Assembly: GCA_019454765.1 (NCBI GenBank)
Contig: JACFNR010000027.1
Location: 1 to 37,037 of the forward strand
Source: Trueperaceae bacterium
GTDB lineage: Bacteria; Deinococcota; Deinococci; Deinococcales; Trueperaceae
Direction of reading: 5' to 3'
DNA length: 37,037 bases
Under the pieces are notes generated by a model, which was given only the letters and a program-made list of their open reading frames with translations, was not told the DNA's origin and searched no databases. Numbering within the stretch: position 1 is the first letter of the stretch; each line of letters starts with the position of its first letter. The translations under genes were made by a program, and so were the position numbers. Positions 8,919 to 15,322 of the stretch are shown one piece after another.

Positions 8919-9105
8919 GTGCGGCCGCGCCATGACCCATGTCAACGCGCTACCGCGAATCGGAACGGTTCAATTCGAGGGCTATGCACCGGGCAGCGGT
9001 ACGCCGCCCGCCGCGAACGAGTACCCTGACCCAGGCGAGCCACGCCGCGGCCGGAACCGGCACAGCGTGGTCGCTCGCCATGGCAACTCAGCAGGAGGCA
9101 AGTCG

Positions 9106-9165
9106 ATGTCCAACGTGATCGGTCCCGAAGTCCTCGCGCCCAGCGCCCCGCCAAGGTCGAGCTGA
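9106..9165 (+). CDS. 19-aa leader peptide coupled to ccoN
   Basis: A short open frame, MSNVIGPEVLAPSAPPRSS, begins 7 nt after a strong AGGAGG (9093-9098). Its TGA shares one base with the ccoN ATG (TGATG). The oxidase gene itself has only a weak ribosome site inside this frame, so translating the leader would deliver ribosomes to ccoN. The peptide is not hydrophobic, so it is not an oxidase subunit of the CbaD type. Whether it senses anything is unknown. Confidence 0.55.
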   Translation: MSNVIGPEVLAPSAPPRSS

Positions 9166-10610
9166 TGGCCCAGACCTCGCCGGTGCTGGCCGTCAAACGT
9201 CCGCTCACGGTCAGCAAGACCAGCGTCGAGCCCGTCGCCGACAGCGACAAGCGCTGGACGAGCCTCATCTACTCCTACGCCGGCGCCGCCACGTTCTGGC
9301 TCATCTGGGGCACCCTGGTCGGCCTGTACCTGAGCTACAAGTTCGCGGCGCCCGACGTCGACCACATCTCGTGGCTCTCCTACGGGCGGCTCCGGCCCGT
9401 GCACACGAACACGGTGTTCTGGGGCTGGTCGTCGCTCGCCATGATCGCCGCGGCGCTCTACGTGGTGCCGCGCACGAGCATGCGCCGGTTGTGGTCGTAC
9501 CCCCTCGCCTGGGTAGCCTTCTGGCTCATCAACGTCTCGGTCCTGGCCGGCGACGTGATGCTGATGGCCGGCATCAACAACGCCGGTCAGGAGTACCGCG
9601 AGTACATCTGGCCCGTGCAGCTGGTGTTCGCCGTCGGCGTCATCCTGGTGGCCTACAACCTCGCGCGCACCATCGCCGACAGGGGCATCGAGGAGATCTA
9701 CATCTCCAACTGGTACATCATGGCGGCGTTCCTATGGACCATCCCGCTCGTGGTCTTCGCCTACATCCCCTTCTACCAGCAGAACGCCATCAGCCAGACC
9801 GTCATCCAGGGCTACTACATGCACATGGGCGTGGGCATGTGGTTCACGCCGTTCGTGCTGGGGCTCACCTACTACGTGCTGCCCAAGCTGCTCAACAAGC
9901 CCATCTACTCCTACTCGCTCGGCGTGTTGGCGTTCTGGGCGCAGCTGATCTTCTACACCATGATCGGCGCCCACCACTTCATCTTCGCCCCGACCCCGTG
10001 GTGGATCCAGACTGTCGCCATCATCTTCAGCGTCGCCATGATCATCACGCTCGCGGCCGGCACGGGCAACTTCCTGCTGACCATGAGGGGCGAGGGGCGC
10101 ACCATCGCGCGCTCGTACAGCCTCCCCTTCATCCTGGCCGGCGTGATCTCGTACTTCCTCTTCTCGGCGCAGGGGTCCCTCGAGGCCATCCGCAGCCTGC
10201 AGGGGATCTGGCACTTCACCAACTACACCGTCGCCCACTCGCACCTGACGATGTACGGCTTCGTCGTGCTCCTCATCTGGGGCGCCCTGTACGGCCTGCT
10301 ACCGCGCCTCACGGGCCACGAGCCGCCCGCCTTCTGGGTGGGCGTGCACTTCTGGTTCGCCGTCGTGGGGCTCACGCTCTACTCGTTCGCGCTGATGATC
10401 GGCGGCAGCGTCCAGGGCCTCAGCTGGATGAGCGGCTCCCCGTTCATCGAGTCCGTGAAGGCCATGGCGTCGTTCTGGCTGTGGCGCGCCGTGGGCGGCA
10501 CGCTCATGTTCCTGAGCCACATCATCTTCGCCTTCAACATGTGGGCGATGCGGCCCCGCGCCGCCACCAGTAGTGCGGCCGCCCCGGCGGCCACCGAGGT
10601 GGCGCAGTGA
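9165..10610 (+). CDS. ccoN: cbb3-like (C-family) cytochrome c oxidase catalytic subunit
   Basis: A 481-aa polytopic protein, subunit I of a heme-copper oxidase. The low-spin heme ligand is H80 (RPVHTNT). CuB ligands are H220 (YMHMGVG) and H270-H271 (MIGAHHF). Y264 (LIFYTMIG) aligns with the cross-linked active-site Tyr of cbb3 enzymes. H358 and H360 (AHSHLTMYG) are the high-spin and second low-spin heme ligands. The helix-VII tyrosine and the downstream CcoO-like gene place it in the C family rather than the A or B families; the Glu pattern of NO reductases is not evident. It would reduce O2 at the membrane using electrons from its cytochrome c subunits. First large gene of the operon; its stop overlaps ccoO (GTGA). 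Confidence 0.9.
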   Translation: MAQTSPVLAVKRPLTVSKTSVEPVADSDKRWTSLIYSYAGAATFWLIWGTLVGLYLSYKFAAPDVDHISWLSYGRLRPVHTNTVFWGWSSLAMIAAALYVVPRTSMRRLWSYPLAWVAFWLINVSVLAGDVMLMAGINNAGQEYREYIWPVQLVFAVGVILVAYNLARTIADRGIEEIYISNWYIMAAFLWTIPLVVFAYIPFYQQNAISQTVIQGYYMHMGVGMWFTPFVLGLTYYVLPKLLNKPIYSYSLGVLAFWAQLIFYTMIGAHHFIFAPTPWWIQTVAIIFSVAMIITLAAGTGNFLLTMRGEGRTIARSYSLPFILAGVISYFLFSAQGSLEAIRSLQGIWHFTNYTVAHSHLTMYGFVVLLIWGALYGLLPRLTGHEPPAFWVGVHFWFAVVGLTLYSFALMIGGSVQGLSWMSGSPFIESVKAMASFWLWRAVGGTLMFLSHIIFAFNMWAMRPRAATSSAAAPAATEVAQ

Positions 10611-11884
10611 ACCTCCACAAGAACCACTGGCTCCTCTTCAGCGTGACGTTCTTCGTGTTCGTCGGCCTCTCGCTGATCATCGCCATCTTCCCCGCTATGT
10701 GGGTGCAGGACAACTCCGAGCCGCTGCCGGGAGCCGTGCCCCTCACGGCGCTCGAGCGCGAGGGGCTCGGCGTCTACGTCGCCGAGGGGTGCGTGGCCTG
10801 CCACACCCAGCAGGTGCGTCCGCTCGAGATGGATCAGGCGTGGGGGCGCCCCGCCGCGCCCGGCGACTACGCCTACGTCACGCCCCTCGGCGTCTGGGCG
10901 CCCTACGCCCCCGCCGTGCTCGGCAGCGAGCGCAACGGCCCGGACCTGACGAACGTCGGCGCGCGCCAGGCGAGCGACGTGTGGCAGTACATCCACCTCT
11001 ACAACCCGCGCGCGGTGGTCCCCGACTCGGTCATGCCCGCCTACCCGTGGCTCTTCGACCGCGTCGCCGACGCGCCCCCCGGCAAGGCCGTGCCCGTCCC
11101 CGCCGCGTTCGCGCCGAAGGACGGCTCGAAGGTCGTCCCCAACGCACGCGGCGAGGCGCTCGTCGCCTACCTGCTCTCCCTGAAGCAGGTGTCGCTGACG
11201 GCCGCGCCGGCCGCCGAGGCCGCACCCGCCGCCGCAACGTCGGCGGCCACGGGAGCGCCCGGGACCGCCCCCGCCACTGAAGTTCCCGCGGCCGCCCCGC
11301 CCGCGGCCGCGCCCGAAGCGCCTGCCGCCGAGACTCCGGCCGCCGAGCCGGCCGCCGCCGAGCCGTCTGCCGCCGAGGTCCCCGCCGCCGAACCGTCTGC
11401 CGCCGAGCCGGCCGCCGCCGAGCCCGTGACCCAGGGCGCCGCTGCGGCCACGACGGGGTCGGCCACCACCGAGGCCGCCACCGCCGAGGCCGCTGCTGCG
11501 GAGCCCACCACCGCCGAGGCGGCGCAGCCGGCCGCGCCCGTGGAATGGGACGAGGCGCTCGGCGAGTCGACGTTCATGGCCTCCTGCGCGGCTTGTCACC
11601 AGGCGACGGGGCAGGGCATCGTGGGCGCCTTCCCGCCCCTGGTGGGCAACGCGGTGGTCGGTGCCGACGACCCGGCCGAACACATCGCCACGGTGCTTTA
11701 CGGCAAGCCGGGGGGCGGCGTGATCGACGGCGTGACCTACACCTCTCCCATGCCGCCCTTCGCCGCCCAACTCAGCGACGAGCAGATCGCGGCCGTCATC
11801 AACCACGAGCGCACCAGCTGGGGCAACTCGGCCACGCTCGTGACGCCCGATGCCGTCGCGGCCGCCAGGAAGGCAGGACAGTGA
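10607..11884 (+). CDS. ccoO: CcoO-like monoheme cytochrome fused to a second cytochrome c domain
   Basis: A 425-aa protein with a GTG start overlapping the ccoN stop. Residues about 8-32 form one membrane anchor. The first heme site is CVACH at 62-66, followed by QQVRPLE, NGPDLTNVGAR and the MPAYPWL segment carrying the axial Met, all typical of CcoO/FixO. Standard CcoO ends near residue 200. Here an Ala/Pro/Glu linker of about 120 residues follows, then a second cytochrome c domain with CAACH at 327-331. The fusion puts a CcoP-like electron entry domain on the CcoO chain. The C-terminal domain closely resembles the cytochrome domain of the gene at 12158. The protein faces the periplasm. Confidence 0.88.
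   Translation: MNLHKNHWLLFSVTFFVFVGLSLIIAIFPAMWVQDNSEPLPGAVPLTALEREGLGVYVAEGCVACHTQQVRPLEMDQAWGRPAAPGDYAYVTPLGVWAPYAPAVLGSERNGPDLTNVGARQASDVWQYIHLYNPRAVVPDSVMPAYPWLFDRVADAPPGKAVPVPAAFAPKDGSKVVPNARGEALVAYLLSLKQVSLTAAPAAEAAPAAATSAATGAPGTAPATEVPAAAPPAAAPEAPAAETPAAEPAAAEPSAAEVPAAEPSAAEPAAAEPVTQGAAAATTGSATTEAATAEAAAAEPTTAEAAQPAAPVEWDEALGESTFMASCAACHQATGQGIVGAFPPLVGNAVVGADDPAEHIATVLYGKPGGGVIDGVTYTSPMPPFAAQLSDEQIAAVINHERTSWGNSATLVTPDAVAAARKAGQ
11341..11424 (+). repeat. Low-complexity Ala/Pro/Glu linker repeats in ccoO
   Basis: The coding sequence for the inter-domain linker contains short GC-rich repeats encoding runs of PAAEPSAAE and PAAAEP. A 24-bp stretch at 11341-11364 recurs exactly at 11401-11424, 60 bp downstream. 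Such repeats can change copy number and so vary linker length between strains. Confidence 0.7.
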
Positions 11885-12147
11885 CCCAGCTACTCCGCCT
11901 CGTGACGACGTTGCAGCACGAGATGCACGGCGCGGCCGCGGCCGGCGCCGCCCAGCCCGACGACTTCTCCCTGCGGACGGCGGACCATCACGCCATGGCG
12001 CCGCAGGGGGGTTACGAGTACGTGCTCGTGATCATCGGCGTCGTCGTGACCGTGCTGCTGACCATCTACACGATCAAGCTACTCGTCAAGCCCGGCGAGG
12101 TCGGCCCCGGACACATCAAGCGCAAGATCTTGACGGGCGACCGGTGA
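11881..12147 (+). CDS. Small one-helix membrane protein of the oxidase operon
   Basis: An 88-aa protein if started at the GTG at 11881, which overlaps the ccoO stop by 4 bp. One membrane helix lies at about 46-67 (VLVIIGVVVTVLLTIYTIKLL), followed by a basic cytoplasmic tail ending KRKILTGDR. Size and position recall CcoQ-type accessory subunits, but the sequence does not match a motif I recognise. Internal ATGs at 11923 and 11997 are alternative starts; the latter would leave just the helix and tail. The residues before the helix are His- and Met-containing. It is likely an assembly or stability subunit of this oxidase. Confidence 0.65.
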   Translation: MTQLLRLVTTLQHEMHGAAAAGAAQPDDFSLRTADHHAMAPQGGYEYVLVIIGVVVTVLLTIYTIKLLVKPGEVGPGHIKRKILTGDR

Positions 12148-12157
12148 GGGGGGCGGC

Positions 12158-13054
12158 ATGACCGACCGTAACGAAGAGGGCCGCCGCGCGGACGAGGCCG
12201 CCGCCACGGTCACGGGCGGCGCCGGCGCGGCCGGGGACCAGACCCGCGTCGACGTCTACCTGGACGGCGGCGAGCAACCCATCGTCAGCTACCGCCCGCC
12301 GGTCAGCTTCGAGCTCGACTCCACTCAGCTGGAGGACGGGCAGCACGTCCTGCGCATCGAGGCGTTCGACTCGAGCGGCAACAAGGGCGTTCGCACCGTG
12401 CCTTTCAGCGTCAGGAACGGACCCGGCATCGCCGTGCACGGCATAACGCCCGGCGACGTCCTCGACGGCAAGATCGAGGTGCTGGTCAACTCGTACGGCG
12501 GCGTGGGCGAGAAGGCGTGGGAGCCGTCGCGAGCGGAGACGCCAGCCCCCATCCCCACCTGGACCTGGGTGCTGGTGCTCCTGATCGCTGCGTTCGGCGT
12601 GTTCTACGGCGTGCGTCACTGGAACCCGTCGGCGGACTTCGCGGCCACGCCGACCTTCAGCTCGACCACCGTCCAGACCAGCCAGGCGCCGGGCGCCGCC
12701 GCCGGCCCGGCCGGCGCTCCCAGTGGTCAGGGTGGCGGAGCCAAGGGCGAGGCGCTCTACGCCAACCTCTGCTCCGCCTGCCACCAGGCCACCGGCCAGG
12801 GCCTGCCCGGCGTCTTCCCGCCGCTGGCGGGCGACCCGGTCGTCACGGCCGACGACCCCACCGAGCACATCACCACCGTCCTGCACGGCAAGCAGGGCTC
12901 CACCATCGACGGGGTGACCTACGCCTCCGCCATGCCCGCCTTCGCGGGCCAGCTCTCCGACGAGGAGGTGGCCGCCGTGATCAACCACGAGCGGACCAGC
13001 TTCGGGAACGCCGCGCCGACCGTCACGGCTGAGCAGGTCGGCGCCCTGCGCTGA
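12158..13054 (+). CDS. Membrane-anchored cytochrome c with N-terminal Ig-like domain (CcoP-like)
   Basis: A 298-aa protein without signal peptide. Residues about 29-86 form an Ig-like beta domain (VDVYLDGG, FELDSTQLEDGQHVLRIEAF, DSSGNKG). A shorter strand-rich segment follows at about 90-115. A single helix at about 133-151 is preceded by PIPTW, similar to the PLPRW anchor start of CcoP. A linker then leads to a class I cytochrome c with CSACH at 205-209 and a likely axial Met in SAMPAF. With the heme domain in the periplasm, the Ig-like domain should be cytoplasmic, which is unusual. The protein takes the place of CcoP as last gene of the operon; the canonical diheme CcoP is absent. Confidence 0.8.
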   Translation: MTDRNEEGRRADEAAATVTGGAGAAGDQTRVDVYLDGGEQPIVSYRPPVSFELDSTQLEDGQHVLRIEAFDSSGNKGVRTVPFSVRNGPGIAVHGITPGDVLDGKIEVLVNSYGGVGEKAWEPSRAETPAPIPTWTWVLVLLIAAFGVFYGVRHWNPSADFAATPTFSSTTVQTSQAPGAAAGPAGAPSGQGGGAKGEALYANLCSACHQATGQGLPGVFPPLAGDPVVTADDPTEHITTVLHGKQGSTIDGVTYASAMPAFAGQLSDEEVAAVINHERTSFGNAAPTVTAEQVGALR

Positions 13055-14517: not shown

Positions 14518-15186
14518 TCAGGGAGGACCCTGGCCCTTCTGCGCCTCGGCGAGGCGCGCGAACACGCAACTCGACTCCCCGTCCGCCATGCAGGAGGTGA
14601 GGCCGAGCGGCTCGCCCAACAGGAGCGACACGAGCCGCTCGTCGAAGCGGCACACGGCGCGCGTCTCGTTGGCGACGTTGTGGAACACGCAGTTGACGGC
14701 GGCCACCCCCACGCCGCCCGGTGCCACCGCGGCGTGGTACCCGAGCTGGTCGAGGATGGTGACGACCGCCGCGCGTCGGGCCTCTGGGTCGAGGCCCACG
14801 AGGTACGGGAGCCACTCCGCCGCGACGTCGTCGGCCATGGTCATCAGCACCTCTTCGGCCGTGTCGTCGCCGACCCGCTCCCGGATGGCGCGGAAGAGGT
14901 TCAGCGAGAGCAGGTCGTAGCGGCGCGGGAACGACTCGAGCCCCTGATGGGTCAGGCCGTAGGTGCGGCTGGGGCGGCGGCCGCTCGGCCGCGAGCCGAC
15001 GTGCACCACCAGCCCGTCGCGTTCGAGCGCCGTGACCTGTTGCCTCACGGCCGTGCGCGTCACGCCGAGGCGGCCCGCCAGCTCGTCGAGGGTCAGCCCT
15101 GCCGGCTTCGCCCTCAACAACTCCTCGAGCAGGGCGTCTCGCGTCGCCTTCGGCGGCGTGCTCGTCTGTGGTGACGCTCGCGTCAT
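14518..15186 (-). CDS. SufR-like winged-helix regulator with Fe-S cluster cysteines
   Basis: A 222-aa protein from the ATG at 15186. The open frame continues to a GTG at 15222, but its first codons are the parS-like site, so I reject that start. Residues about 31-63 are a DeoR/ArsR-type helix-turn-helix (TLDELAGRLGVTRTAVRQQV) with a wing. The C-terminal domain carries C166, C179, C199 and C207, spaced like the cluster ligands of SufR-type [4Fe-4S] regulators. Such proteins control iron-sulfur assembly or redox genes. No suf genes are in the window; the nearest candidates are the divergent secreted protein and the downstream NodB-like gene. Confidence 0.78.
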   Translation of the reverse strand: MTRASPQTSTPPKATRDALLEELLRAKPAGLTLDELAGRLGVTRTAVRQQVTALERDGLVVHVGSRPSGRRPSRTYGLTHQGLESFPRRYDLLSLNLFRAIRERVGDDTAEEVLMTMADDVAAEWLPYLVGLDPEARRAAVVTILDQLGYHAAVAPGGVGVAAVNCVFHNVANETRAVCRFDERLVSLLLGEPLGLTSCMADGESSCVFARLAEAQKGQGPP

Positions 15187-15205
15187 GGTCGCTCTCGTGG
15201 TCGAT

Positions 15206-15221
15206 TGTTCCACGTGAAACA
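15206..15221. promoter_or_regulatory. parS-like 16-bp site (ParB binding)
   Basis: The 16-mer TGTTCCACGTGAAACA matches the bacterial parS consensus TGTTNCACGTGAAACA at every defined base. ParB binds such sites to start chromosome segregation, and they usually cluster near the replication origin. It lies between a regulator and a divergent gene, 20 bp upstream of the regulator ATG. An operator read as a CACGTG box is the alternative. No parA or parB gene is in the window. Confidence 0.7.
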
Positions 15222-15322
15222 CCCCGGCGGCCGCTGGGATGGACCGTTCGGCGCGGCCCGCCGTCCGGGCGCGCGCTCGACTCCCTTAGTAGCCCCTACC
15301 GGCCAACAATAACATAAACGGC

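Follow-up and report, generated by a model that had tools for sequence, protein, structure and literature searches.

We analysed 37,037 nucleotides of a Trueperaceae bacterium genome (assembly GCA_019454765.1, contig JACFNR010000027.1, positions 1 to 37,037 of the forward strand), and we refer to this whole stretch as the window. The genome is 2.9 Mb in size and 97% complete, and its nearest relatives by CcoN are Deinococcota bins. The window contains a cbb3-like operon, with the following features:

9107-9165, + strand: 19-codon leader open reading frame, with AGGAGG at 9093-9098 and a TGA that overlaps the ccoN ATG
9165-10610, + strand: ccoN, encoding CcoN, the catalytic subunit I, of a divergent C-family clade (Pfam COX1, 260 bits)
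10607-11884, + strand: ccoO with an extra C-terminal cytochrome c (Pfam FixO, 121 bits, residues 7-155)
10790-10804, + strand: CVACH heme c motif of the CcoO domain (from the sequence)
11204-11521 (approximate limits), + strand: Ala/Pro/Glu-rich linker in the CcoO fusion (from the sequence)
11558-11806, + strand: fused cytochrome c domain of CcoO, of the c552 or tethered-NirK type (residues 318-400)
11881-12147, + strand: protein with one transmembrane helix at the ccoQ position, with a C-terminal P-x-E...H-I-K motif predicted to be cytoplasmic
12158-13054, + strand: protein with an Ig-like domain, a FixP_N-like transmembrane helix, and a cytochrome c (the Ig protein), the proposed CcoP counterpart
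12245-12487, + strand: N-terminal Ig-like beta domain of the Ig protein, predicted to be cytoplasmic
12536-12568, + strand: invariant ETPxPxPxWxW motif of the Ig protein, whose Glu is paired in alignments with an invariant Glu of canonical CcoP
12557-12616, + strand: transmembrane helix of the Ig protein (structure model)
12740-12985, + strand: cytochrome c domain of the Ig protein (residues 195-276)

Neighbouring genes either overlap by 4 nt or are 10 nt apart, which looks like the spacing of one translationally coupled operon. A preliminary description of this DNA had placed four genes at 9106 to 13054. All four are where it put them, but the start of ccoN is corrected to 9165. The leader open reading frame is probably incidental because none was seen in the close relatives L006 and L007. 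A scan of the operon for promoters and terminators found nothing. Near the operon, at 14518-15222 on the minus strand, is a gene for a winged-helix regulator with several Cys residues near its C-terminus, possibly an Fe-S sensor.

The operon shares several features with canonical ccoNOQP. CcoN has a COX1 fold nearest to 3mk7 and 5djq, the closest solved structures are cbb3 CcoN/CcoO, and a monoheme CcoO/FixO subunit is present (PF02433, 121 bits against a cut-off of 29.6). The gene order is also N-O-small-P. However, the window CcoN scored 242 bits against the ccoN equivalog TIGR00780, below its cut-off of 583. One scan of 84,980 genomes found 38 further loci, with CcoN identities of 48 to 86%. 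The preliminary description had suggested looking for the same four-gene order in other genomes, and it does recur. CcoO was present in 38/38 loci and the Ig protein in all 35 loci with a contig long enough to hold it. These loci are spread over seven phyla (Deinococcota, Pseudomonadota, Acidobacteriota, Nitrospirota, Ignavibacteriota, Bacteroidota, and Myxococcota), with isolates of Halomonas, Hymenobacter, Filimonas, and Cryomorpha among them. In 21 genomes, the ccoN model separated two kinds of CcoN cleanly, with canonical proteins at 640 to 755 bits and variant proteins at 220 to 277 bits. Both kinds occur in 16 of these genomes, and five, including the window genome, have the variant alone. 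A maximum-likelihood tree of 39 variant and 17 canonical CcoN proteins divided them with full support, about 4 substitutions per site apart; it was midpoint-rooted and so gives the separation, not the relative age of the two sides. The window CcoN sits in it with Deinococcota, beside Pseudomonadota and one acidobacterial bin. Judged by its sequence, the variant represents a second branch of the cbb3 (C) family, deeply split from the first. Most Bacteroidota variant CcoN proteins (L019-L043) have an N-terminal extension of 100 to 270 residues, consisting of a signal peptide, a helix, and a cytoplasmic FDETVTNLTPxQL segment, and this extension is duplicated in Chitinophagaceae.

We examined the active site using P. 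stutzeri numbering. Six His residues (60, 207, 257, 258, 345, and 347) and Tyr251 were invariant in all 39 variant CcoN proteins, and Glu122, Glu125, Tyr223, Thr293, and Tyr317 were also identical in 39/39. The single proton path of cbb3 oxidases runs past Ser240, Tyr223, and the residues around them. In all 39 proteins, Ser240 is replaced by Gly, Thr321 by Ser, Glu323 by Gln, and His243 by Ala or Gly (Ala in the window CcoN). The heme-copper superfamily also contains NO reductases (sNOR, gNOR, nNOR, eNOR, bNOR, cNOR, and qNOR). In the described NOR families, the active-site Tyr is swapped for E, N, Q, or D (table in PMC8756737), whereas the variant retains it. Furthermore, sNOR, gNOR, and nNOR are B-family relatives (PMC11388526), as are eNOR and bNOR, whereas the variant belongs to the C family. 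Identity with gNOR, sNOR, or nNOR was rejected on both counts. Because Tyr251 is kept, and the described NORs either replace this Tyr or are in the B family, the enzyme is most likely an oxygen reductase by the Tyr and family criteria. The window genome does encode three enzymes recognised by motif on contigs C8, C62, and C39 (L004, L005, and L003), of which two are sNOR-like, with HDxAN where the Tyr motif would be, and one is NorB-like, with WVEGVWE.

We found no description of this operon among open-access papers. However, the catalytic subunit alone may have been encountered before. PMC5492636 cites an 'unknown group' of Muntyan et al. 2015, a group in the COX1 tree apart from cbb3, and cbb3 is marked there by a mandatory active-centre Glu. 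The variant has Gln at E323. The two could be the same, in which case the 'unknown group' may be the catalytic subunit of the variant operon.

The preliminary description had noted a second cytochrome fused to CcoO on an Ala/Pro/Glu linker, and a separate cytochrome with an Ig-like domain. Both are real. The fusion is the majority state, with an extra cytochrome on CcoO in 34 of the 38 loci, and the separate cytochrome is the Ig-TM-cytochrome c protein at 12158-13054. It had also been proposed that the heme total equals that of CcoO plus CcoP. This is so in the window but fails as a rule, because three c hemes were counted in only 10 of the 34 fully readable operons and two in the other 24. 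A cytochrome is present on the Ig protein in 13 of these 34. Tethered cytochromes occur on both chains in 10 operons, on CcoO only in 21, on the Ig protein only in 3, and on neither chain in none. Therefore, the conserved feature is the presence of one or more tethered cytochromes of the c552 type beside the heme of CcoO itself, on either chain. The similarity of the extra domain to Thermus c552, and to the cytochrome that some Cu nitrite reductases carry on a tether, is in keeping with an arm for electron entry. CcoO proteins with a C-terminal cytochrome c are also the subject of NCBIfam PRK14486 (CcoO-cytochrome c fusions), which matched the window CcoO over residues 9-195 with 135 bits, far under the model cut-off of 447. 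The tethered cytochromes are very likely where electrons enter, and the alternative entry route suggested earlier agrees with this.

No diheme CcoP of the canonical kind had been seen in the operon, and this holds for the whole window genome, in which no ccoP match rose above the cut-off. The best match to the ccoP HMM was the Ig protein itself, at 40 bits against 180. A profile of the canonical CcoP N-terminus found just short cytochrome c pieces in the window genome and in five other genomes, four of which have only variant CcoN by the ccoN model. A canonical ccoP elsewhere in the window genome was rejected on these two results. The window genome also gave no match to FixG_C or FixH, which represent the ccoG and ccoH assembly proteins of canonical cbb3. 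Of these two, FixG_C was present in 6/6 genomes with canonical cbb3 and in 0/7 without a known one, and one of those seven had a borderline FixH match.

We propose that CcoP is not simply absent, as the preliminary description had it, but has a counterpart in the Ig protein. Its 24 aligned members share 20 invariant positions, including ETPxPxPxWxW at the start of the helix. Pfam FixP_N, the N-terminal domain of CcoP, matched 10 of the 24, although weakly (best E value, 0.005). When the helix stretch was aligned with canonical CcoP by hhalign, the invariant Glu residues of both were paired (E value, 0.0013; probability, 18%). In canonical cbb3, a CcoP Glu, which may or may not be the one paired here, has been placed at the entrance of the proton path. 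A CcoP-N HMM run over 4637 open reading frames put Ig proteins in most of the top ranks, with single E values of 0.03 to 7. This evidence for a FixP_N helix, whose signature in CcoP is Glu-x-x-N-x-x-P-x-W, is cumulative and not decisive. Because of the FixP_N-type helix, the matching Glu, and the ccoP gene position, we think that the Ig protein, which we call P', probably corresponds to CcoP. It differs from CcoP in its Ig domain and in having one heme or none. Where CcoP has two heme c sites, the window Ig protein has one, and 21 of the 34 readable operons have none on this chain.

The one-helix protein sits at the ccoQ position, between ccoO and the Ig gene. An alignment of 27 members showed a P-x-E...H-I-K tail with P, E, H, and K in common, although the HIK tail is missing from the Hymenobacter and Spirosoma proteins. 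Similarity to CcoQ was marginal (hhalign E value, 0.0002; probability, 47%). Pfam FixQ did not match, and the other Pfam families gave scattered chance matches alone. The idea that this protein is a stray CcoP helix was unsupported (hhalign probability, 3%). Neither it nor the Ig protein has a significant solved relative. Many of the Bacteroidota one-helix proteins (L022-L041) have a signal peptide with a CxxC pair immediately after it, which may bind metal or form a disulfide.

In a structure model, the Ig protein consists of a beta domain joined by one helix to a cytochrome c. The window Ig domain scored 20.3 bits against Pfam Big_7, slightly under the gathering cut-off of 24.1, and Foldseek with this domain alone returned no match under an E value of 0.2, and so no significant solved Ig fold. 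Heme is attached to cytochrome c outside the cytoplasm. Because a single helix separates the cytochrome c from the Ig domain, the latter is probably in the cytoplasm. The K+R counts follow the positive-inside pattern, with 2.1 before the helix and 1.0 after it.

A search of the phylum with an Ig-TM profile found Ig-TM-cytochrome c proteins in two other families, which matched in the Ig part alone (E values of 1e-16 to 1e-22). In the two loci examined, the Ig-TM-cytochrome c gene is followed by genes for an FbcX-like protein, a Rieske protein, and cytochrome b. We assign these proteins as FbcC of the Thermus-type bc1, which has the order FbcC-FbcX-FbcF-FbcB. Ig-bearing FbcC proteins include L088 1492-2244, L097, L109, and others, and the homologous domain of L088 scored 24.4 bits against Big_7, above the cut-off. 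FbcC and the Ig protein have homologous Ig domains, but FbcC belongs to complex III, with a Rieske protein and cytochrome b, neither of which is in the window operon. Their Ig domain would be common to one complex III and one complex IV, with a predicted place at the inner face of the membrane.

The electron donor in the window organism is likely to be alternative complex III (ACIII), judging by co-occurrence. The cytochrome b of bc1 was not found in the window genome, and bc1 was rejected as its donor for this reason. The genome does have an operon whose products are a pentaheme protein, an ActB-like protein of 1036 residues, a protein of the NrfD type, and other membrane proteins and cytochromes, which looks as expected of ACIII. 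In L023, the genes directly after the cco operon are an actA-like one for a pentaheme protein, a molybdopterin/FeS actB, and one resembling NrfD/ActC. We propose ACIII as the donor because of these three observations. The window genome also encodes an aa3 oxidase, and ACIII could feed this enzyme too.

We consider it fairly probable that these genes together specify a complete heme-copper cytochrome c oxidase from a divergent branch of the C family, built as N-O-Q'-P' and fed by ACIII. In the complex that we infer, CcoN would hold a low-spin heme b and a heme b3-CuB centre with its Tyr cofactor, and would use O2 as its substrate. CcoO would assemble beside it with one heme c. A c552-type cytochrome, carried on the long flexible linker of CcoO, on P', or on both, would gather electrons, from ACIII in the window organism, and pass them to the CcoO heme. 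The single helix of P' would pack like the FixP_N helix of CcoP, with its Glu kept at the cytoplasmic edge, where it may serve in proton uptake. In the predicted topology, the N-terminal Ig-like domain of P' would be in the cytoplasm, at the face that bears this Glu, and the one-helix protein would take the place of CcoQ. Some observations count against this model. The FixP_N and CcoQ likenesses are each weak singly, S240 of the proton path and E323 are both replaced, and the operon has an NO-stress context in Bacteroidota and Halomonas.

Two alternatives concern the origin and integrity of the operon. Its unusual parts might be a local accident or signs of decay, and the CcoO-cytochrome c fusion is indeed missing in L007. 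The preliminary description had named such a loss in a close relative as grounds for suspecting an accident. The loss does occur, but the fusion is spread over the tree, and because of this its absence from L007 is a secondary loss. With 38 loci over seven phyla, isolates included, and 20 invariant positions in the Ig protein, conservation rules this explanation out, and we regard it as extremely improbable. It is also possible, although we doubt it, that the Ig protein is an FbcC-type cytochrome recruited to the operon and no kin of CcoP, with its FixP_N-like helix arising by convergence. The identical domain order and the shared Ig domain described above would fit such a recruitment. However, FbcC matches the Ig part alone, its helix is different, without ETPxPxPxWxW and without a match to the CcoP-N HMM, and the Ig gene occupies the position of ccoP.

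The remaining alternative concerns the substrate. The enzyme might be mainly an NO reductase, or an NO-tolerant oxidase of nitrosative stress and not a housekeeping O2 reductase, with the replaced E323 and S240 reflecting altered substrate or proton handling. Near the 39 variant loci are genes for flavohemoglobin (6), the heme protein HTHP (6), cupins of two kinds (7 and 8), DUF488 (5), Rrf2 (9), and Crp-type regulators (10-11), although these counts overstate independence because the loci are related and Hymenobacter is over-represented. Flavohemoglobin, HTHP, the cupins, and DUF488 were all absent from the neighbourhoods of 16 canonical ccoN loci in the same genomes, where Rrf2 occurred twice and Crp five times. 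Flavohemoglobin and HTHP recur in Halomonas and Hymenobacter. A small protein with no Pfam family is encoded beside several Hymenobacter copies of the operon (L029 3816-4142, relative to ccoN, and similar). However, none of the NO-stress neighbours adjoins the window operon, Tyr251 is kept where described NORs replace it, and the window genome already has NorB-like and sNOR-like enzymes. We therefore think a main role in NO reduction or nitrosative stress unlikely, and we favour an ACIII-fed oxidase.

A bolder interpretation can be put forward only as speculation, and we think it unlikely to hold in full. The clade would be a second C-family lineage of deep origin, and its CcoP would have been rebuilt with a cytoplasmic Ig-like domain at its core, one also present in the cytochrome subunit of the Thermus-type complex III. 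Respiratory complexes with tethered c-type cytochromes would use this domain in common for docking or sealing on the cytoplasmic side. With S240 and E323 lost and the Ig-protein Glu kept, protons would take a rewired path, and the enzyme would serve NO-exposed respiration in several lineages.

The variant clade is large and deep, and it makes several mechanistic questions testable. Standard profiles under-score its CcoN (about 240 bits against 583), so that genomes carrying it are easily logged as having an incomplete cbb3 oxidase or none. The clade is a natural test of which C-family parts are essential. The CcoP hemes appear to be dispensable while one tethered cytochrome stays, and Ser240 and Glu323 appear to be dispensable as a set in a C-family oxidase. 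A homologous Ig domain at the cytoplasmic face, an unusual setting for an Ig fold, would link complex III with complex IV. Furthermore, the NO-stress neighbourhood makes the question of O2 or NO as the substrate testable in cultivated Hymenobacter and Halomonas.
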